Of a stretch of DNA of 35,003 bases, positions 2,688 through 9,019 are shown one piece after another; position 1 is the first letter of the stretch; every line of letters starts with the position of its first letter. The DNA comes from a virus. The notes beneath the pieces are model-generated. The model saw only the letters and a program-made list of their open reading frames with translations. It was not told the origin of the DNA and ran no database searches. The position numbers were made by a program, and so were the translations under genes. The stretch lies in IMG/VR virus record IMGVR_UViG_3300002483_002005, positions 2,367 through 37,369 of that record. One strand, given 5' to 3'.

Positions 2688-2921
2688 TTATTTACGATTC
2701 CAGATTTCATACAGAACCCAAACTGAGATCAAACCCATGACGCCTTCAGCGCCGAGTCCAGCTAACATTGCTGTTACATTGTCAACTACACTCATACCTT
2801 CGGGCATGAATGGCATAGCACTTAGTCCTAGTATCTCTAGGATAATCGCTAATGCAGCAACACTAAGTCCTACATCAGCTAAGGCGCCTGCCCATGATTT
2901 CACTTTGTTTAAAGTTTCCAT
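2688..2921 (-). CDS. Small two-TM protein, holin candidate, 77 aa
   Basis: An ATG at 2921 with AAGGAGAC upstream. Two hydrophobic segments, at about residues 14-34 (ADVGLSVAALAIILEILGL) and 50-72 (MLAGLGAEGVMGLISVWVLY), are joined by a short loop, with a basic end (NRK). Size and topology match class II holins, and an endolysin gene lies 1 kb upstream in the same orientation. No sequence family is recognised, so holin is a guess from topology. The gene follows the tmRNA coding piece directly and may be expressed from the same transcript. Confidence 0.65.
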   Translation of the reverse strand: METLNKVKSWAGALADVGLSVAALAIILEILGLSAMPFMPEGMSVVDNVTAMLAGLGAEGVMGLISVWVLYEIWNRK

Positions 2922-2939: not shown

Positions 2940-3076
2940 TGGTACCACTTTTCTGTTGCTAAGCAAGTGGCCAGCTCCCTGTGATTATGCAGCTAGTGCA
3001 AATCCAGAAGGTGCAAAGTTATCGTTTGCATTTATGTTTTATAGACTCAAATACCAGTCAATCCTATTTCACCCCC
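2940..3076 (-). ncRNA. ssrA: Permuted tmRNA, coding RNA piece (5' tRNA half and proteolysis tag)
   Basis: The RNA begins GGGGGTG (3076-3070), the 5' strand of the acceptor stem. AAATAGGATTGACTGG follows, resembling the conserved start of bacterial tmRNAs. The tag frame runs from GCA at 3029 to TAA at 2985 and encodes ANDNFAPSGFALAA, a canonical ssrA degradation tag ending in ALAA. After the stop, CCACTT and AAGTGG (2970-2965 and 2950-2945) form a hairpin or part of a pseudoknot near the expected 3' end. The partner acceptor piece lies upstream at 3300-3352. The two 7-nt acceptor strands pair fully, with G3-U70, the wobble that AlaRS requires. The exact 3' end near 2940 is estimated. Confidence 0.9.
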
Positions 3077-3087
3077 ACAAAACCACA

Positions 3088-3279
3088 CTACTTGGAATCT
3101 AAAACTTCTTTGCATTTACCTGATGCATAAGTTTCGAACCAACGAGGAACAAAGGCATGTATGAAGCAAGCATATGCTGCTTTTTCCAACTGCCATGAAA
3201 TCCACAAAGCTCGTTTGAAATGTTGCCAGCGTGTCATGCCAGCTTCTTCTACGTGTGATTTACATTTCTTACTAATCAT
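3088..3279 (-). CDS. DUF6356-like protein, 63 aa, inside the tmRNA intervening segment
   Basis: I chose the ATG at 3279 because TAAGGA lies 7-12 bases before it; a longer reading from 3348 would run through the tmRNA T-arm. The protein (MISKKCKSHVEEAG, HFKRALWISWQLEKAAYACFIHAFVPRWF) looks like the DUF6356 family: a short basic start, then an amphipathic or membrane-associated helix containing FIHAF-P. The function is unknown in the family. Its position is remarkable: it lies wholly between the acceptor piece (ends 3300) and the coding piece (starts 3076) of a permuted tmRNA, so its message is probably the excised spacer of the precursor. Confidence 0.7.
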   Translation of the reverse strand: MISKKCKSHVEEAGMTRWQHFKRALWISWQLEKAAYACFIHAFVPRWFETYASGKCKEVLDSK

Positions 3280-3299
3280 GTTTTTCCTTAATGTGTTTT

Positions 3300-3352
3300 T
3301 GGTGGAGGTGCTGGGTTCTGCCCCCAGGTCCTGTATATCCTCTAACATCTAT
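3300..3352 (-). ncRNA. ssrA: Permuted tmRNA, acceptor RNA piece (T-arm, acceptor strand, CCA)
   Basis: Minus strand: T-arm CTGGG-GGCAGAA-CCCAG (3327-3311, 5 perfect pairs), then acceptor strand CACCTCC (3310-3304), discriminator A and an encoded CCA ending at 3300. CACCTCC pairs with GGGGGTG of the coding piece over all 7 positions. The T-loop GGCAGAA lacks the usual TTC. A promoter of the phage early type sits just upstream (3359-3387), predicting a 5' end near 3352 and a piece of about 53 nt. ATAGA and ATAC in this piece can pair with TCTAT and GTAT of the coding piece as a candidate P2 helix. Confidence 0.85.
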
Positions 3353-3358
3353 GAGGTT

Positions 3359-3387
3359 ATTTAACCATATATCCCAGAGAAAGTAAA
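3359..3387 (-). promoter_or_regulatory. Early-type promoter for the split tmRNA
   Basis: TTTACT, 17 nt, TTAAAT on the minus strand. The -10 sits inside the inverted repeat GGTTA-AA-TAACC (3366-3355). The predicted start falls at the acceptor RNA. The -10 is the weakest of the set. Confidence 0.55.
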
Positions 3388-3456
3388 TGGCTTTTCACGA
3401 TATTCCTTGACCGTGATATAATTATCACTATACCATTAACATCGTATACGATGAAT

Positions 3457-5082: not shown

Positions 5083-5262
5083 ATGTGGGTATTGCTATGG
5101 GTACAGTTAATGGCAACACAAAATGTAAATCACTTTCATATTGGTAATTATTCAAAAGAAGTAGACTGCCAGTCGGCTATGAGTGCCGCTGCTGTTTTAG
5201 TTACTAGTAAAAATGAAAGCGTTGCTTGCTTGTACGTAGATATTAATGACATTAGAAATTAG
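5083..5262 (+). CDS. Small late exported protein, 59 aa
   Basis: ATG directly follows the stop of the tail-anchored gene (TAAATG), so it is probably translated by reinitiation. The N-terminus (MWVLLWVQLMATQ) is hydrophobic and looks like a short signal sequence. The remainder has two Cys (VDCQSAM, VACLYVD) that could pair in the periplasm. It ends by overlapping the convergent methyltransferase gene by 4 bp, and no terminator is visible between them. Family unknown. Confidence 0.6.
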   Translation: MWVLLWVQLMATQNVNHFHIGNYSKEVDCQSAMSAAAVLVTSKNESVACLYVDINDIRN

Positions 5263-6446
5263 ATAAAAGCTTCCAAAGTATTAGGAGCCTTTTCAATATT
5301 GTATGATCGAGTCTTGTTATCTTGCAAGACATACTCTGCTTCGATCATTTGCAAGTCACCACCTAAAAATCTTTTTACATTTTCTGCCATGTCCATTGCT
5401 GTCGTAACAGGCACGTTCTGACATATCATATTTAAGTTCTTTAGTCCTCCTTGTAATATAAAGTCTTTTGGCATCTTCATTATATCCAATGCTTCGCGAG
5501 TATTGATATAACGATCTTCATCGGGGTGGCATAAGGTATGAGGGAAGTGACCAACGAAAGCACCAATACGATCTTTTCCTATCTCAGTCATCTTTCTCAT
5601 TATATTTCCACCAGCCGATAACTTATCAAACATATAGTTACACTTCTCAGAAAGCTTCTGGTGACCCCTTTCTGCCATCCAAACGCCCACATCCTTATAA
5701 GATACACCTTTATCTTCAATATAGTGTAAAGGATTAGTTGTCTTTTCAATTAGTTGAAAGAACTCAGGATGAGTAATTCCACCATGCATTTCTTCTAGTA
5801 CGTATTGATAGTAAGGATTGTCCGAAGGTTTCTGTTTGCTATTCACCTGTTCAAACATTGGATCTGGTTCGTTTGTAGCAGATGAACGAATCTGATCTTC
5901 GATCTTAGTGTATGGTCGATTGTAATACGATAAGATTGGTACAGAGTTTCCTTTCCAAAAGAAATAGAATGATCTATCTCTAACCTGGCTTAATCCGTGG
6001 AGGATTGATTTGGTTTTGTAGATGGAGAAGACGTAACCGTTTCTTCTTCCGATTTCTCTAAGTTTTGCCACAACTGGTTCTCCCATTCGACTAGCGAGCC
6101 GTGGAGCATTTTCACCCCAGAACACAGTTGGTTGGATGGATTCGAGCACATACTCGGCAGACTTGACCATCCAATCATTAGTATTACTATCACCGCTGCT
6201 AGTAGGACTAAGTGAAGAAAGCCCCGCACAAGGGCAGACAGTATTGACCACATCCACTCTGCTAGGAGCAGTGTCCCCTTTATCAAGCAGTAGATAAGGA
6301 ATATTATTATTATAATAGTTAAGAAGTTGGCTATCATTTGCTGTAAAATCCGTGTAAGAGAGGATGTATTCGGGTCGTTTCCCGAATACGTTTTCCATTG
6401 CTATTGTTTCACCTCCTATGAGAGGAACAATACTTGCATAATTCAT
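5259..6446 (-). CDS. C5-cytosine DNA methyltransferase, 395 aa
   Basis: Transfers a methyl group from SAM to C5 of cytosine in DNA. The motif order is complete: a degenerate motif I (IVPLIGG near residue 6), motif IV CPCAGLS with the catalytic Cys (PCQGFS in most relatives), motif VI GENAP in place of ENV, motif VIII QVRDRSFYF, and motif IX/X near the end (NTREALDIMKMPKDF, CQNVPVTTAMDMAENV). A start at the ATG at 6446 overlaps the epimerase stop (TAATG) with AAGGTGAA upstream. It is the last gene of the modification operon. The divergent motifs I, IV and VI leave specificity and even activity open, and its role in a phage predicted to carry hydroxymethylcytosine is unclear. Confidence 0.78.
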   Translation of the reverse strand: MNYASIVPLIGGETIAMENVFGKRPEYILSYTDFTANDSQLLNYYNNNIPYLLLDKGDTAPSRVDVVNTVCPCAGLSSLSPTSSGDSNTNDWMVKSAEYVLESIQPTVFWGENAPRLASRMGEPVVAKLREIGRRNGYVFSIYKTKSILHGLSQVRDRSFYFFWKGNSVPILSYYNRPYTKIEDQIRSSATNEPDPMFEQVNSKQKPSDNPYYQYVLEEMHGGITHPEFFQLIEKTTNPLHYIEDKGVSYKDVGVWMAERGHQKLSEKCNYMFDKLSAGGNIMRKMTEIGKDRIGAFVGHFPHTLCHPDEDRYINTREALDIMKMPKDFILQGGLKNLNMICQNVPVTTAMDMAENVKRFLGGDLQMIEAEYVLQDNKTRSYNIEKAPNTLEAFI

Positions 6447-7399
6447 TAATTCACCTTGTAATAATCTTTGTACCAAGTGACAAATTTTTCCACGCCATCA
6501 GCAATAGGTGTTGTTGGATTATAACCTAATTTCTGGAGTTTAGTCGTATCTGACCATGTGGCTGGAGTATCTGCCGGATGTGCTTCACAAGGATTACGTA
6601 TTGCTGTGCGACCAAGGTTCTTTTCAATATGATCTACAAAATCAAGTAACTCTACTTGTTGTCCATATCCGATATTATATATCTCATGATAACTATCACT
6701 ATCTGTGACAACTTTATCTATCACTAGGCTTATGCCATGAACAATATCTTCAACGTAAGTAAAGTCACGTTTCATATCACCAAAGTTATATAAGTCAATT
6801 GGTTTACCTTTTATAATATTATCAGTAAACTTAAACAGCGCCATGTCAGGTCTTCCATAAGGACCATACACAGTAAAGAATCGTAAGCCAGCGGTACGTT
6901 TAATTTTTGAATGACCAAACTGACATTCGTTTACTTTTTTAGACCAGCCATAAGGGTTGTTTTGATTTTCAGGTTTATCAACTTCATTCCAAGGTAACGG
7001 CTGTCCATGCATTACACATGATGATGAAGCATATACTACAGGAATATTGAGTCCTTCGACTTCCAATGCTTCGACGATACGCTGTGTACCAGTAATGTTT
7101 GTGTCAATATAGTGCTGTGGTTCGTCCATAGCGTGACGTGGATTTGCATATGCTGCAAGGTGTAAGACTACGTCCACGTCATCAAATAATTTCTTATCAG
7201 GATGAATGTCTTGAATATCGAGTTGTAACGTATCAACTCCATAGTCTTCTCTTAATATTCTTGCTCTTTCTCTTTTTAGTTCTACATCGTAGTAGTCATT
7301 AAAATTATCTACTCCTACTACTTGGTGTCCTCTTGCTGCATAGTATATTGCAGAGTGGAAGCCTATCATGCCGGCTTGGCCTGTGATAAATATTTTCAT
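6446..7399 (-). CDS. UDP-glucuronate 4-epimerase-like NAD-dependent epimerase, 317 aa
   Basis: An extended short-chain dehydrogenase fold with the NAD motif GQAGMIGFHS (residues 7-16; the usual first Gly-x-x-Gly pattern is kept) and VVGVDNFNDYYDVELKRER, a stretch typical of UDP-glucuronate 4-epimerases. The catalytic set is YASSSCVMHG (Ser) and a YGWSK motif (Tyr, Lys). It would convert UDP-glucuronate to UDP-galacturonate. The matching UDP-glucose dehydrogenase is encoded at 17898-18701, so the phage appears to carry both steps. The start overlaps the glucosyltransferase stop by 4 bp. Whether the product goes to the host surface or to phage DNA is unknown. Confidence 0.82.
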   Translation of the reverse strand: MKIFITGQAGMIGFHSAIYYAARGHQVVGVDNFNDYYDVELKRERARILREDYGVDTLQLDIQDIHPDKKLFDDVDVVLHLAAYANPRHAMDEPQHYIDTNITGTQRIVEALEVEGLNIPVVYASSSCVMHGQPLPWNEVDKPENQNNPYGWSKKVNECQFGHSKIKRTAGLRFFTVYGPYGRPDMALFKFTDNIIKGKPIDLYNFGDMKRDFTYVEDIVHGISLVIDKVVTDSDSYHEIYNIGYGQQVELLDFVDHIEKNLGRTAIRNPCEAHPADTPATWSDTTKLQKLGYNPTTPIADGVEKFVTWYKDYYKVN

Positions 7400-8643
7400 A
7401 CGAAAAATTCCTCGAGTCCTTGTGGTTGGTTGCTAGTAGTGTTCAAAGCGAGATCGATAATTTCTTTCACAACCATTTCTCCATCGGAGTGTTGCTTCCA
7501 AAATTCAAACGCCATCTCTCTCCAATCATCTCTCATCGCAGGATCATTTTTAAGTTTGACCATTTGGTCGCGGCACTCATTAAAGTTAGTATAGTCAACG
7601 CCTAGAGTGCCAGAGTTTTGACATTGACTAATTGGTTTACCTTGTACAGGATGAATTACATTATCACAAAAGTGTTTGTGAAATAACGGTACTGTACCTG
7701 AAGCTATACATTCGGCGTGGCAATTTTCTATATTGTTACCATAGTGTTCTGCTTTTAAAAAGTATAAGTCAGAACCAAATGCTGACCGTGACATACGATC
7801 CATAGCTTCTGAGTTTATATATTGTGGATAAAGGTATGCACCTTTGCCTTCAACTTCTTTGCCATACAAATCAGGTGTAAACTTAACTTCATTAAATTGT
7901 TTCTCAGGTCTGAAATGATTTTCTACAATTCTACGATCTGTAGGATTGTCTGATTTATTATCACGATATAAGACTAAAGGATATTGTATAGAAGCTTCTA
8001 GTCCTTCCAACACAGTGATAAATCCTTGTTCCATCAAAGCATCTTGATGGAAGTCAATCATAACACTTGGTCCTTTCCACATAGCAGTACGGCCAATCCA
8101 TCTTACCATGTTGTGTTGTTGTTCTTCAATAGGACGCCAGTACTTTGCACGGTGTCCATCATAATCAAAGCCAAGTCCCATCTTTGTAAGTGGAGTTTCA
8201 ATCTTGTTTTTTCTCATAAACTTACAGAAATCATTTTCCATACTATGAGTCATAATAACATCTACATTTTCGCATACTTCTTTTAAGTTAGCATTACGTG
8301 CAATGGATGCTGCTTTATGATCTACGTTAATAAACGCTTTACGAATATTAATATGTTTAAGAAACGGAATAAAATTATCCTGGCATTCTTGAGGATGACT
8401 CTTTGAAGGTACTGAATATATGATACACAAATCAAAATATTCATTAATCCAATTGGCATTTATCTCCCATTCATTTGCCATTGAGAATTCTTTTTGCTTT
8501 ATATCTAATCCTTTGGCTCTACCCCATTTTTTATCAGTAGCAGATAAGATATGAGCACCCGTTACTTTTTGCATTTGTATTGCACACTGTGTAACACCGC
8601 AACCTTCAGTGCCGCGACCAAGGACAATTGCAATTCTAGTCAT
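7396..8643 (-). CDS. agt: DNA alpha-glucosyltransferase, T4 AGT homologue, 415 aa
   Basis: Aligned from memory to T4 AGT along the protein: RGTEGCGVTQ near the N-terminus matches RGLEGCGVT, INVDHKAASIARN matches the H-D-H region, and MVRWIGRTAMWKG (residues 179-191) with VLEGLEAS matches the INRWIGRTTTWKG and VMEGLERS segments. Length is near T4's 400. T4 AGT moves glucose from UDP-glucose to 5-hydroxymethylcytosine in DNA, protecting it from nucleases. I start at the ATG at 8643 with TAAGGAATT upstream, 8 bp overlapping the previous gene. A predicted dCMP hydroxymethylase lies 1.5 kb upstream in the same operon, which supports the role. Confidence 0.85.
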   Translation of the reverse strand: MTRIAIVLGRGTEGCGVTQCAIQMQKVTGAHILSATDKKWGRAKGLDIKQKEFSMANEWEINANWINEYFDLCIIYSVPSKSHPQECQDNFIPFLKHINIRKAFINVDHKAASIARNANLKEVCENVDVIMTHSMENDFCKFMRKNKIETPLTKMGLGFDYDGHRAKYWRPIEEQQHNMVRWIGRTAMWKGPSVMIDFHQDALMEQGFITVLEGLEASIQYPLVLYRDNKSDNPTDRRIVENHFRPEKQFNEVKFTPDLYGKEVEGKGAYLYPQYINSEAMDRMSRSAFGSDLYFLKAEHYGNNIENCHAECIASGTVPLFHKHFCDNVIHPVQGKPISQCQNSGTLGVDYTNFNECRDQMVKLKNDPAMRDDWREMAFEFWKQHSDGEMVVKEIIDLALNTTSNQPQGLEEFFV

Positions 8644-9019
8644 TAATAAATTCCTTACATTCAATTAAAACATTATGTACGTATTTATGATCGTTTAACT
8701 TACGATTTCTAGGGGAAGGATGTGGTAAGACAAAGTGATCTTCGAAACCAAGACGTTTCAAATAGCTCGATACCATTGAACCCCATACAACTATCTTATC
8801 ATAGTTTTTAAGACTTGTACATAATAAAGTGTGATCAAAAGTCTTAAATTTAAAATCCCATTCAGGATCAAATGATAAGTTAGTGAAGGAGACATGTGTG
8901 AGGTCCAGTTGATCTAACCAGCTATGAAATCTTTTGTACGCAGATCCCTTTGCCTTACTCACTGCTACCTTTGAAGGATTCATTCCAACAAAGATAATTC
9001 TAGACCGAAACGAATTCAT
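8636..9019 (-). CDS. Uracil-DNA-glycosylase-superfamily protein, 127 aa
   Basis: IIFVGMNPSK near the N-terminus matches the G-x-NP loop of family 4/5-like uracil-DNA glycosylases. IVVWGSMVSSYL and LPHPSPRNRK near residue 107 match the late HPSPRN motif. It is short for an active family 4 enzyme (about 190-210 aa), so it may be a minimal relative. In a base-modification operon it could remove uracil or deaminated modified cytosine, or act as a modified-base binder; this is inference. I start at the ATG at 9019; a TTG start 21 bases upstream is possible. Confidence 0.65.
   Translation of the reverse strand: MNSFRSRIIFVGMNPSKVAVSKAKGSAYKRFHSWLDQLDLTHVSFTNLSFDPEWDFKFKTFDHTLLCTSLKNYDKIVVWGSMVSSYLKRLGFEDHFVLPHPSPRNRKLNDHKYVHNVLIECKEFIND

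Follow-up and report, generated by a model that had tools for sequence, protein, structure and literature searches.

Small protein genes nested in the intervening sequence of permuted tmRNAs of marine T4-like phages

What occupies the 223-nucleotide (nt) intervening sequence (IVS) that separates the two pieces of a circularly permuted tmRNA gene in a marine phage, a stretch of RNA presumed to be discarded? The locus lies on the minus strand of the window, by which we mean the whole 35,003-nt stretch of DNA that was analyzed (positions 2,367 to 37,369 of IMG/VR record IMGVR_UViG_3300002483_002005); all coordinates below are window positions unless another sequence is named. The source record is a 37,369-base virus contig from a marine virus of bacteria. 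T4-type replication genes are present in the window (family B polymerase, clamp, clamp loader, and a gp46/47-like pair resembling SbcC/SbcD), together with genes for a UvsX-like recombinase, a DnaB-like helicase, and a primase. No smpB gene was found in the 37-kb contig, so use of host SmpB is presumed. A search of the contig for gp32, performed without a positive control, was also negative. Two-piece tmRNAs have been reported in phages (53 in 18,146 genomes, 50 of them aquatic) (PMC9004378), and one is annotated in pelagiphage Mosig; a phage-encoded permuted tmRNA as such is therefore known. The question concerns what lies between the pieces.

The window encodes a permuted tmRNA of the alphaproteobacterial type

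Infernal searches with two Rfam models recognized the locus on the minus strand. RF04321 (tmRNA_permuted) matched positions 2985 to 3352 with 77.3 bits (E = 2.4e-13; cut-off, 47) and RF01849 (alpha_tmRNA) matched 2941 to 3391 with 67.2 bits (E = 1.9e-16; cut-off, 50), so that the covariance-model check proposed in an earlier, sequence-only reading was passed with both curated cut-offs exceeded. ARAGORN, run on the window, did not detect the tmRNA at 2941 to 3391, one of several of these viral tmRNA genes that it overlooks.

The precursor, expected to yield two pieces when mature, spans 2941 to 3391. The CCA-bearing piece lies upstream of the coding piece and contains the 5′ strand of P2, the long inter-piece helix (3331 to 3352, AUAGA...AUAC.CAG), which the RF04321 alignment pairs with its 3′ strand in the coding piece (3041 to 3057). 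The T-arm follows at 3311 to 3327 (stem CTGGG/CCCAG, loop GGCAGAA; from sequence and covariance model) and then, at 3300 to 3310, the acceptor 3′ strand CACCTCC (3310 to 3304) with an encoded ACCA (3303 to 3300). The acceptor 5′ strand GGGGGTG (3076 to 3070) pairs with CACCTCC at 7/7 positions, including G3-U70; an RNase P site is expected before it, cleavage being inferred from known tmRNA maturation. The coding piece further contains a D-loop-like GGATTGAC (3057 to 3064, from sequence) and a reading frame at 3029 to 2985 that encodes ANDNFAPSGFALAA; with its hydrophobic C terminus and TAA stop, this frame, recognized in both the sequence and the covariance model, met the criterion for a tag. 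Downstream, the RF01849 alignment places a conserved GCAACAGAA motif and a CCACTT/AAGTGG stem in the post-tag region (2941 to 2983), where a pseudoknot is expected from inspection by eye only. Rereading of the minus strand bore out all positions that the sequence-only reading had assigned. Its central proposal, a phage-encoded permuted tmRNA of the alpha type, is backed by both covariance models, by the tag and the pairing of the acceptor strands, and by the phage genes around the locus. The identity of 2941 to 3391 is thus confirmed on sequence evidence; processing and protein tagging are inferred. The locus shares with the alphaproteobacterial permuted tmRNAs (RF01849/RF04321) the gene order, the G3-U70 acceptor stem, T-arm, P2, tag, and post-tag motif. 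It differs from them in its longer span and in an IVS that encodes a conserved protein.

A DUF6356 gene lies within the IVS

The IVS (3077 to 3299), flanked by CCA and GGGGGTG, holds a protein-coding gene. This gene, the genuinely unusual feature of the locus, was missed when the locus was originally read as a two-piece tmRNA, a description that is otherwise right except for its remark on the T-loop. The frame starts with ATG, runs from 3279 to 3088, and encodes 63 amino acids (MISKKCKSHVEEAG...VLDSK); it is preceded by its own ribosome-binding site, AAGGA (3289 to 3285). Residues 7 to 59 matched Pfam family DUF6356 (PF19883) with E = 2.5e-12 and 47.2 bits (gathering cut-off, 24.4). To our knowledge, DUF6356 has no known function. 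The predicted structure of the protein is a three-helix model (pLDDT 81, pTM 0.49), and H9, H20, H41, and P45 are invariant across 27 relatives.

A protein search of viral contigs with the nested gene returned 52 loci. In L002, L003, L004, L006, L007, L009, and L014, the DUF6356 gene lies within the tmRNA at the same position; it is within the tmRNA also in L019 and L020, in a longer IVS, and L258 carries a more distant DUF6356 gene inside its own IVS (Pfam E = 4.8e-8). The L005 contig terminates ahead of the second tmRNA piece, and six other records have a short tmRNA spacer and DUF6356 located elsewhere. No homologs of the nested gene were found among cultured phages. Copies in the IVS had a median dN/dS of 0.09, and sequence comparison shows the nested gene to be under purifying selection.

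Most long viral spacers are coding; the few bacterial ones scored differ

Viral tmRNAs were collected with an acceptor-arm pattern that is blind to the length of the spacer and to whether it is coding, yielding 80 with both pieces. Sixteen of these had an IVS of at least 140 nt, and 14/16 were open over at least 80% of their length in one sense frame. Length-directed scans (matches in 73 and 40 viral contigs) and the loci fetched with the DUF6356 protein enlarged the set of distinct viral IVSs of this length to 100, of which 93 were open by the same measure versus 6.6 expected from Markov shuffles. Among the seven that were not, L019 and L020 contain two tandem genes, L232, L278, and L390 have an open reading frame (ORF) that covers the IVS only in part, and only L315 (207 nt) and L330 (193 nt) look noncoding. 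An initial ORF scan had demanded stop codons inside the IVS and detected no gene in 27 of 93 IVSs that were 180 nt or longer. The resulting estimate that about a third of long IVSs are geneless was rejected: once frames were allowed into the coding piece, most proved coding, many of them ending at a conserved UAG. ARAGORN detected no tRNA genes within the long IVSs. The tmRNAs of eighteen representatives with cargo, and that of Melnitz, a cultured phage, exceeded the Rfam cut-offs. The contigs are fragments whose viral status was assigned by IMG/VR. Because near-copies are frequent among the rows, the counts overstate independence. T4-type gp32 was present in 14/50 cargo-bearing contigs, spread over most cargo families, the remaining contigs being mostly fragments; the T4 portal, positive in only 1/50 fragments, was dropped as a phage marker in favor of gp32.

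Permuted tmRNA matches occurred in 273/289 alphaproteobacterial genomes. Among the 150 best-scoring matches, spans were 184 to 351 nt, with two above 300 nt, versus 368 nt in the window; a list of best-scoring matches may lean toward short spacers. A pattern for 200- to 230-nt spacers matched 11 records among 84,980 prokaryote genomes, of which the Acetobacter and Rhizobiales matches were discarded as spurious, short-spacer genes having been spanned by accident. Four bacterial IVSs that reach 140 nt were scored, and none had a frame open over 80%. Separately, a Rhizobiales genome (L403; G058 contig C69, 331060 to 331683) showed two tandem permuted tmRNA matches, of 143.7 and 77.8 bits.

The closest cultured relatives in tmRNA type are also T4-like marine phages: the OM43 phage Melnitz and the pelagiphages Mosig and HTVC008M (PMC9004378). 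Mosig and the window have the motif AAACACATTA of the IVS stem in common, and comparable stems occur in HTVC008M and Melnitz. Unlike that of the window, the IVSs of Mosig (44 nt) and HTVC008M (49 nt) are geneless hairpins and little else. Melnitz (L418) has a 142-nt IVS (positions 1786 to 1927 of that locus) with an unannotated, unproven ORF, MFKWLSKTRLVVITRDYF....

One RNA gene inside a permuted tmRNA spacer has been described, a tRNA-Ala in a nominally archaeal genome, GCA-2688965, reported as unique to one sequence (PMC11915505). This tmRNA likewise has a gene inside its spacer, but an RNA gene, and the part of that paper accessible to us makes no mention of a protein gene in a tmRNA IVS. 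Nor did we find a report of a protein-coding tmRNA IVS elsewhere in the literature searched, which left out most subscription papers. What is new is the protein-coding IVS, widespread in marine T4-like phages. A tmRNA piece presumed discarded is, in many of these phages, a protein-coding slot in which the RNA fold is kept and the genes are exchanged. Such a slot could account for the persistence of the permuted form in phages. The work also provides a catalogue of small phage proteins, overlooked by annotation because they are located inside an RNA gene.

A probable slot for small protein genes

There are no transcript, processing, or protein data for this locus. We nevertheless consider it likely that the window encodes a working phage permuted tmRNA and that its IVS serves as a cassette slot for genes of small proteins, the 63-amino-acid DUF6356 protein in this case. 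A single transcript would be produced across the locus, and an IVS helix stacked on the acceptor stem would bring the two strands of that stem together. The IVS would then be excised by RNase P and 3′ tRNA-processing nucleases of the host, leaving a two-piece tmRNA joined by the acceptor stem and P2, which with host SmpB and alanyl-tRNA synthetase could rescue ribosomes during infection. The nested gene would be translated from the precursor or from the excised piece, a small mRNA that processing may release. The locus is a testable case of one RNA giving rise to both a rescue RNA and an mRNA.

The cargo is diverse, with about a dozen unrelated families. BLAST clustering of 110 frames gave 29 groups, about a dozen of them multimember and some short singletons doubtful. 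Apart from the DUF6356 genes, a match to PGDYG/phrog_419 was obtained for one cargo gene. Families with at least three distinct copies had median dN/dS values of 0.05 to 0.20. The 442-nt IVS of L019 and L020 contains a DUF6356 gene followed by one of the NEFEL family. The NEFEL, WSICAD, KATKK, KEKCRI, and HWISW families had no homologs among cultured phages; of the families searched, only MEVIW matched one, with a relative in Melnitz that is directly upstream of the tmRNA and not inside it. As a separate observation, IVS genes of the KEKCRI family (L308, L309, L312, L329, L348, and L354) have a good Shine-Dalgarno (SD) sequence and no ATG, GTG, or TTG, and their start codon seems to be AUA (or AUU).

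Cargo also turns over. Mapped on a tree built from 155 tmRNA cores, cargo labels require 56 changes for 19 states, and gene presence or absence requires 34. The tree was built by a quick method, many of its branches are weak, gain and loss cannot be distinguished, and its labels predate the extended frame scan, so that some rows marked geneless do carry a gene. Starred groups differed in cargo (L171/L377, L316/L378, and L009/L014 with L201). The cores of L009, which carries DUF6356, and L201, which has a 78-nt IVS, are identical at 179/193 positions, and those of L318 and L335, with different genes, at 173/195. Cargo is swapped between nearly identical tmRNA cores. The exchange probably relies on homologous recombination within the conserved tmRNA sequence on either side, which is inferred as the simplest route.

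Cargo that comes and goes, in a slot neutral for the mature RNA, could also be expected of selfish insertions that are tolerated because the spacer is excised, comparable to S23p in a 23S rRNA IVS or to homing endonucleases in group I introns. There is precedent in Coxiella, where a 23S rRNA IVS encodes S23p, so that here too a spacer removed from the precursor of a structural RNA carries a protein gene (PMC4990558, of which only part was available); that case involves a different RNA and, as far as that part goes, a single selfish element versus the many cargo families of phage tmRNAs. We regard selfish insertion as unlikely. The families are about a dozen and unrelated, Pfam and PHROGs searches of the cargo tested revealed no mobility, nuclease, or recombinase domain, DUF6356 occurs also elsewhere in related phage genomes, and the slot is rare in bacteria.

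Signs of selection on the tmRNA and on its cargo

Alternatively, the tmRNA itself might be degenerate and perform no tagging, its halves acting as processing or stability signals that free a small mRNA. The window offers some support for this. The distance from acceptor to tag is 47 nt, versus a viral median of 81 nt and 83 to 97 nt in six bacterial rows, and with a region of only 47 nt pseudoknot PK1 seems to be missing. The absence of PK1, which would be shared with other phage clades, is only probable, being inferred from the length of the region without a pseudoknot prediction. Two places are off consensus. The sequence-only reading had called the T-loop unusual for lacking TTC; that absence is normal in the family (GGC... 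without TTC in 136/169 viral tmRNAs; RF01849 consensus, GGCgGUA), and what is rare in GGCAGAA is its A (5/169). The D-loop-like GGATTGAC is rare as well (4/169; its T is the off-consensus residue), the consensus GGATCGAC being found in 140/169 viral relatives. The short pre-tag region and these two places could mean weaker tmRNA function, though entire clades have the short form. Against degeneration, 131/142 viral tags read have the LAA ending (the tag ANDNFAPSGFALAA itself is present in 7/142), the acceptor strands show compensation at variable positions, and the post-tag motif is conserved. These features suggest selection on the entire tmRNA, and we think a degenerate RNA quite improbable. 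Distances of 46 to 48 nt from acceptor to resume codon were seen also in L062, L303, L361, L384, L307, and L327, and PK1 seems to be absent from several phage clades.

That this is an ordinary phage permuted tmRNA with an incidental frame in its spacer is scarcely tenable, for although a spacer is always present in permuted tmRNAs and the window ORF is in itself unremarkable in length (63 amino acids are attained in 1.8% of Markov-shuffled versions of its IVS), the Pfam match, the median dN/dS, a position and ribosome-binding site fixed in relatives, and the coding of 93/100 long viral IVSs all speak against it.

The ends of the IVS form a helix around the gene

In viral IVSs the two ends pair, with a mean duplex energy of -13.1 kcal/mol versus -6.7 when shuffled and -7.6 across loci. 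Scored in a fixed register over 77 distinct rows, 9.27/10 positions formed standard pairs versus 6.57 ± 0.13 when 3′ strands were permuted among rows (maximum in 500 permutations, 6.92), and several pair types occur at each helix position. This is strong but not formal evidence of covariation, because the register was the best of four for each row and permutation leaves relatedness in place. The helix consensus is CCA-UAAACACAU...AUGUGUUUAUGAU-GGGG. In the window, the 5′ strand AAAACACATTA (3289 to 3299) is directly 3′ of CCA and pairs in the minimum-energy fold with the 3′ strand TAGTGTGGTTTTGT (3077 to 3090); the fold recovers CACAUUA/UAGUGUG (z = -3.2), including the UAG at which the nested gene terminates. 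The IVS ends thus constitute a covarying helix with the gene in its loop.

The placement of translation signals relative to this helix differs among classes. In one class, of which the MEVIW family is an example, the helix has UAAGGACAUU as its 5′ strand and includes the SD sequence, which pairs with the final codons of the gene; a UGAU linker supplies the UGA stop. In other classes the frame crosses the acceptor strand and ends at the conserved UAG of GGGGNNGAAAUAG. In the class of the window, the SD sequence (3285 to 3289) is at the helix top, predicted to be partly paired with UUCC in the Ser62 codon. For most members of the SD-in-helix class, the predicted probability that the SD sequence is unpaired was 0.00 to 0.06 versus 0.3 to 0.7 without the 3′ strand; for the window it was 0.22 in the full precursor versus 0.56 without the 3′ strand, consistent with partial hiding. 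The remaining classes showed no consistent predicted effect, and in some families it was opposite. The notion that the helix always hides the SD sequence was consequently rejected: it holds for the SD-in-helix class and is not general.

Translation of the nested gene would open the helix, and folding of the helix would hide or crowd the ribosome-binding site. If so, both products would draw on a single RNA and be in partial competition for it; coupling of IVS gene translation to tmRNA maturation is inferred. A fuller form of this idea, which we put forward only tentatively and judge possible rather than probable, is a spacer slot whose maturation helix doubles as a translational operator, with the SD sequence in the 5′ strand, the last codons in the 3′ strand, and the UGA or UAG of the tmRNA as stop, so that tmRNA maturation and a small infection protein regulate each other.

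Neighboring genes in the window

Directly downstream of the tmRNA, a 77-amino-acid hydrophobic ORF (2688 to 2921, minus strand) has its own AAGGAG and no Pfam match; it may be on the same transcript as the tmRNA. Farther along the window, C5-cytosine methylase-like and alpha-glucosyltransferase-like genes lie close together (5259 to 6476 and 7396 to 8664), a pairing that suggests modified phage DNA.
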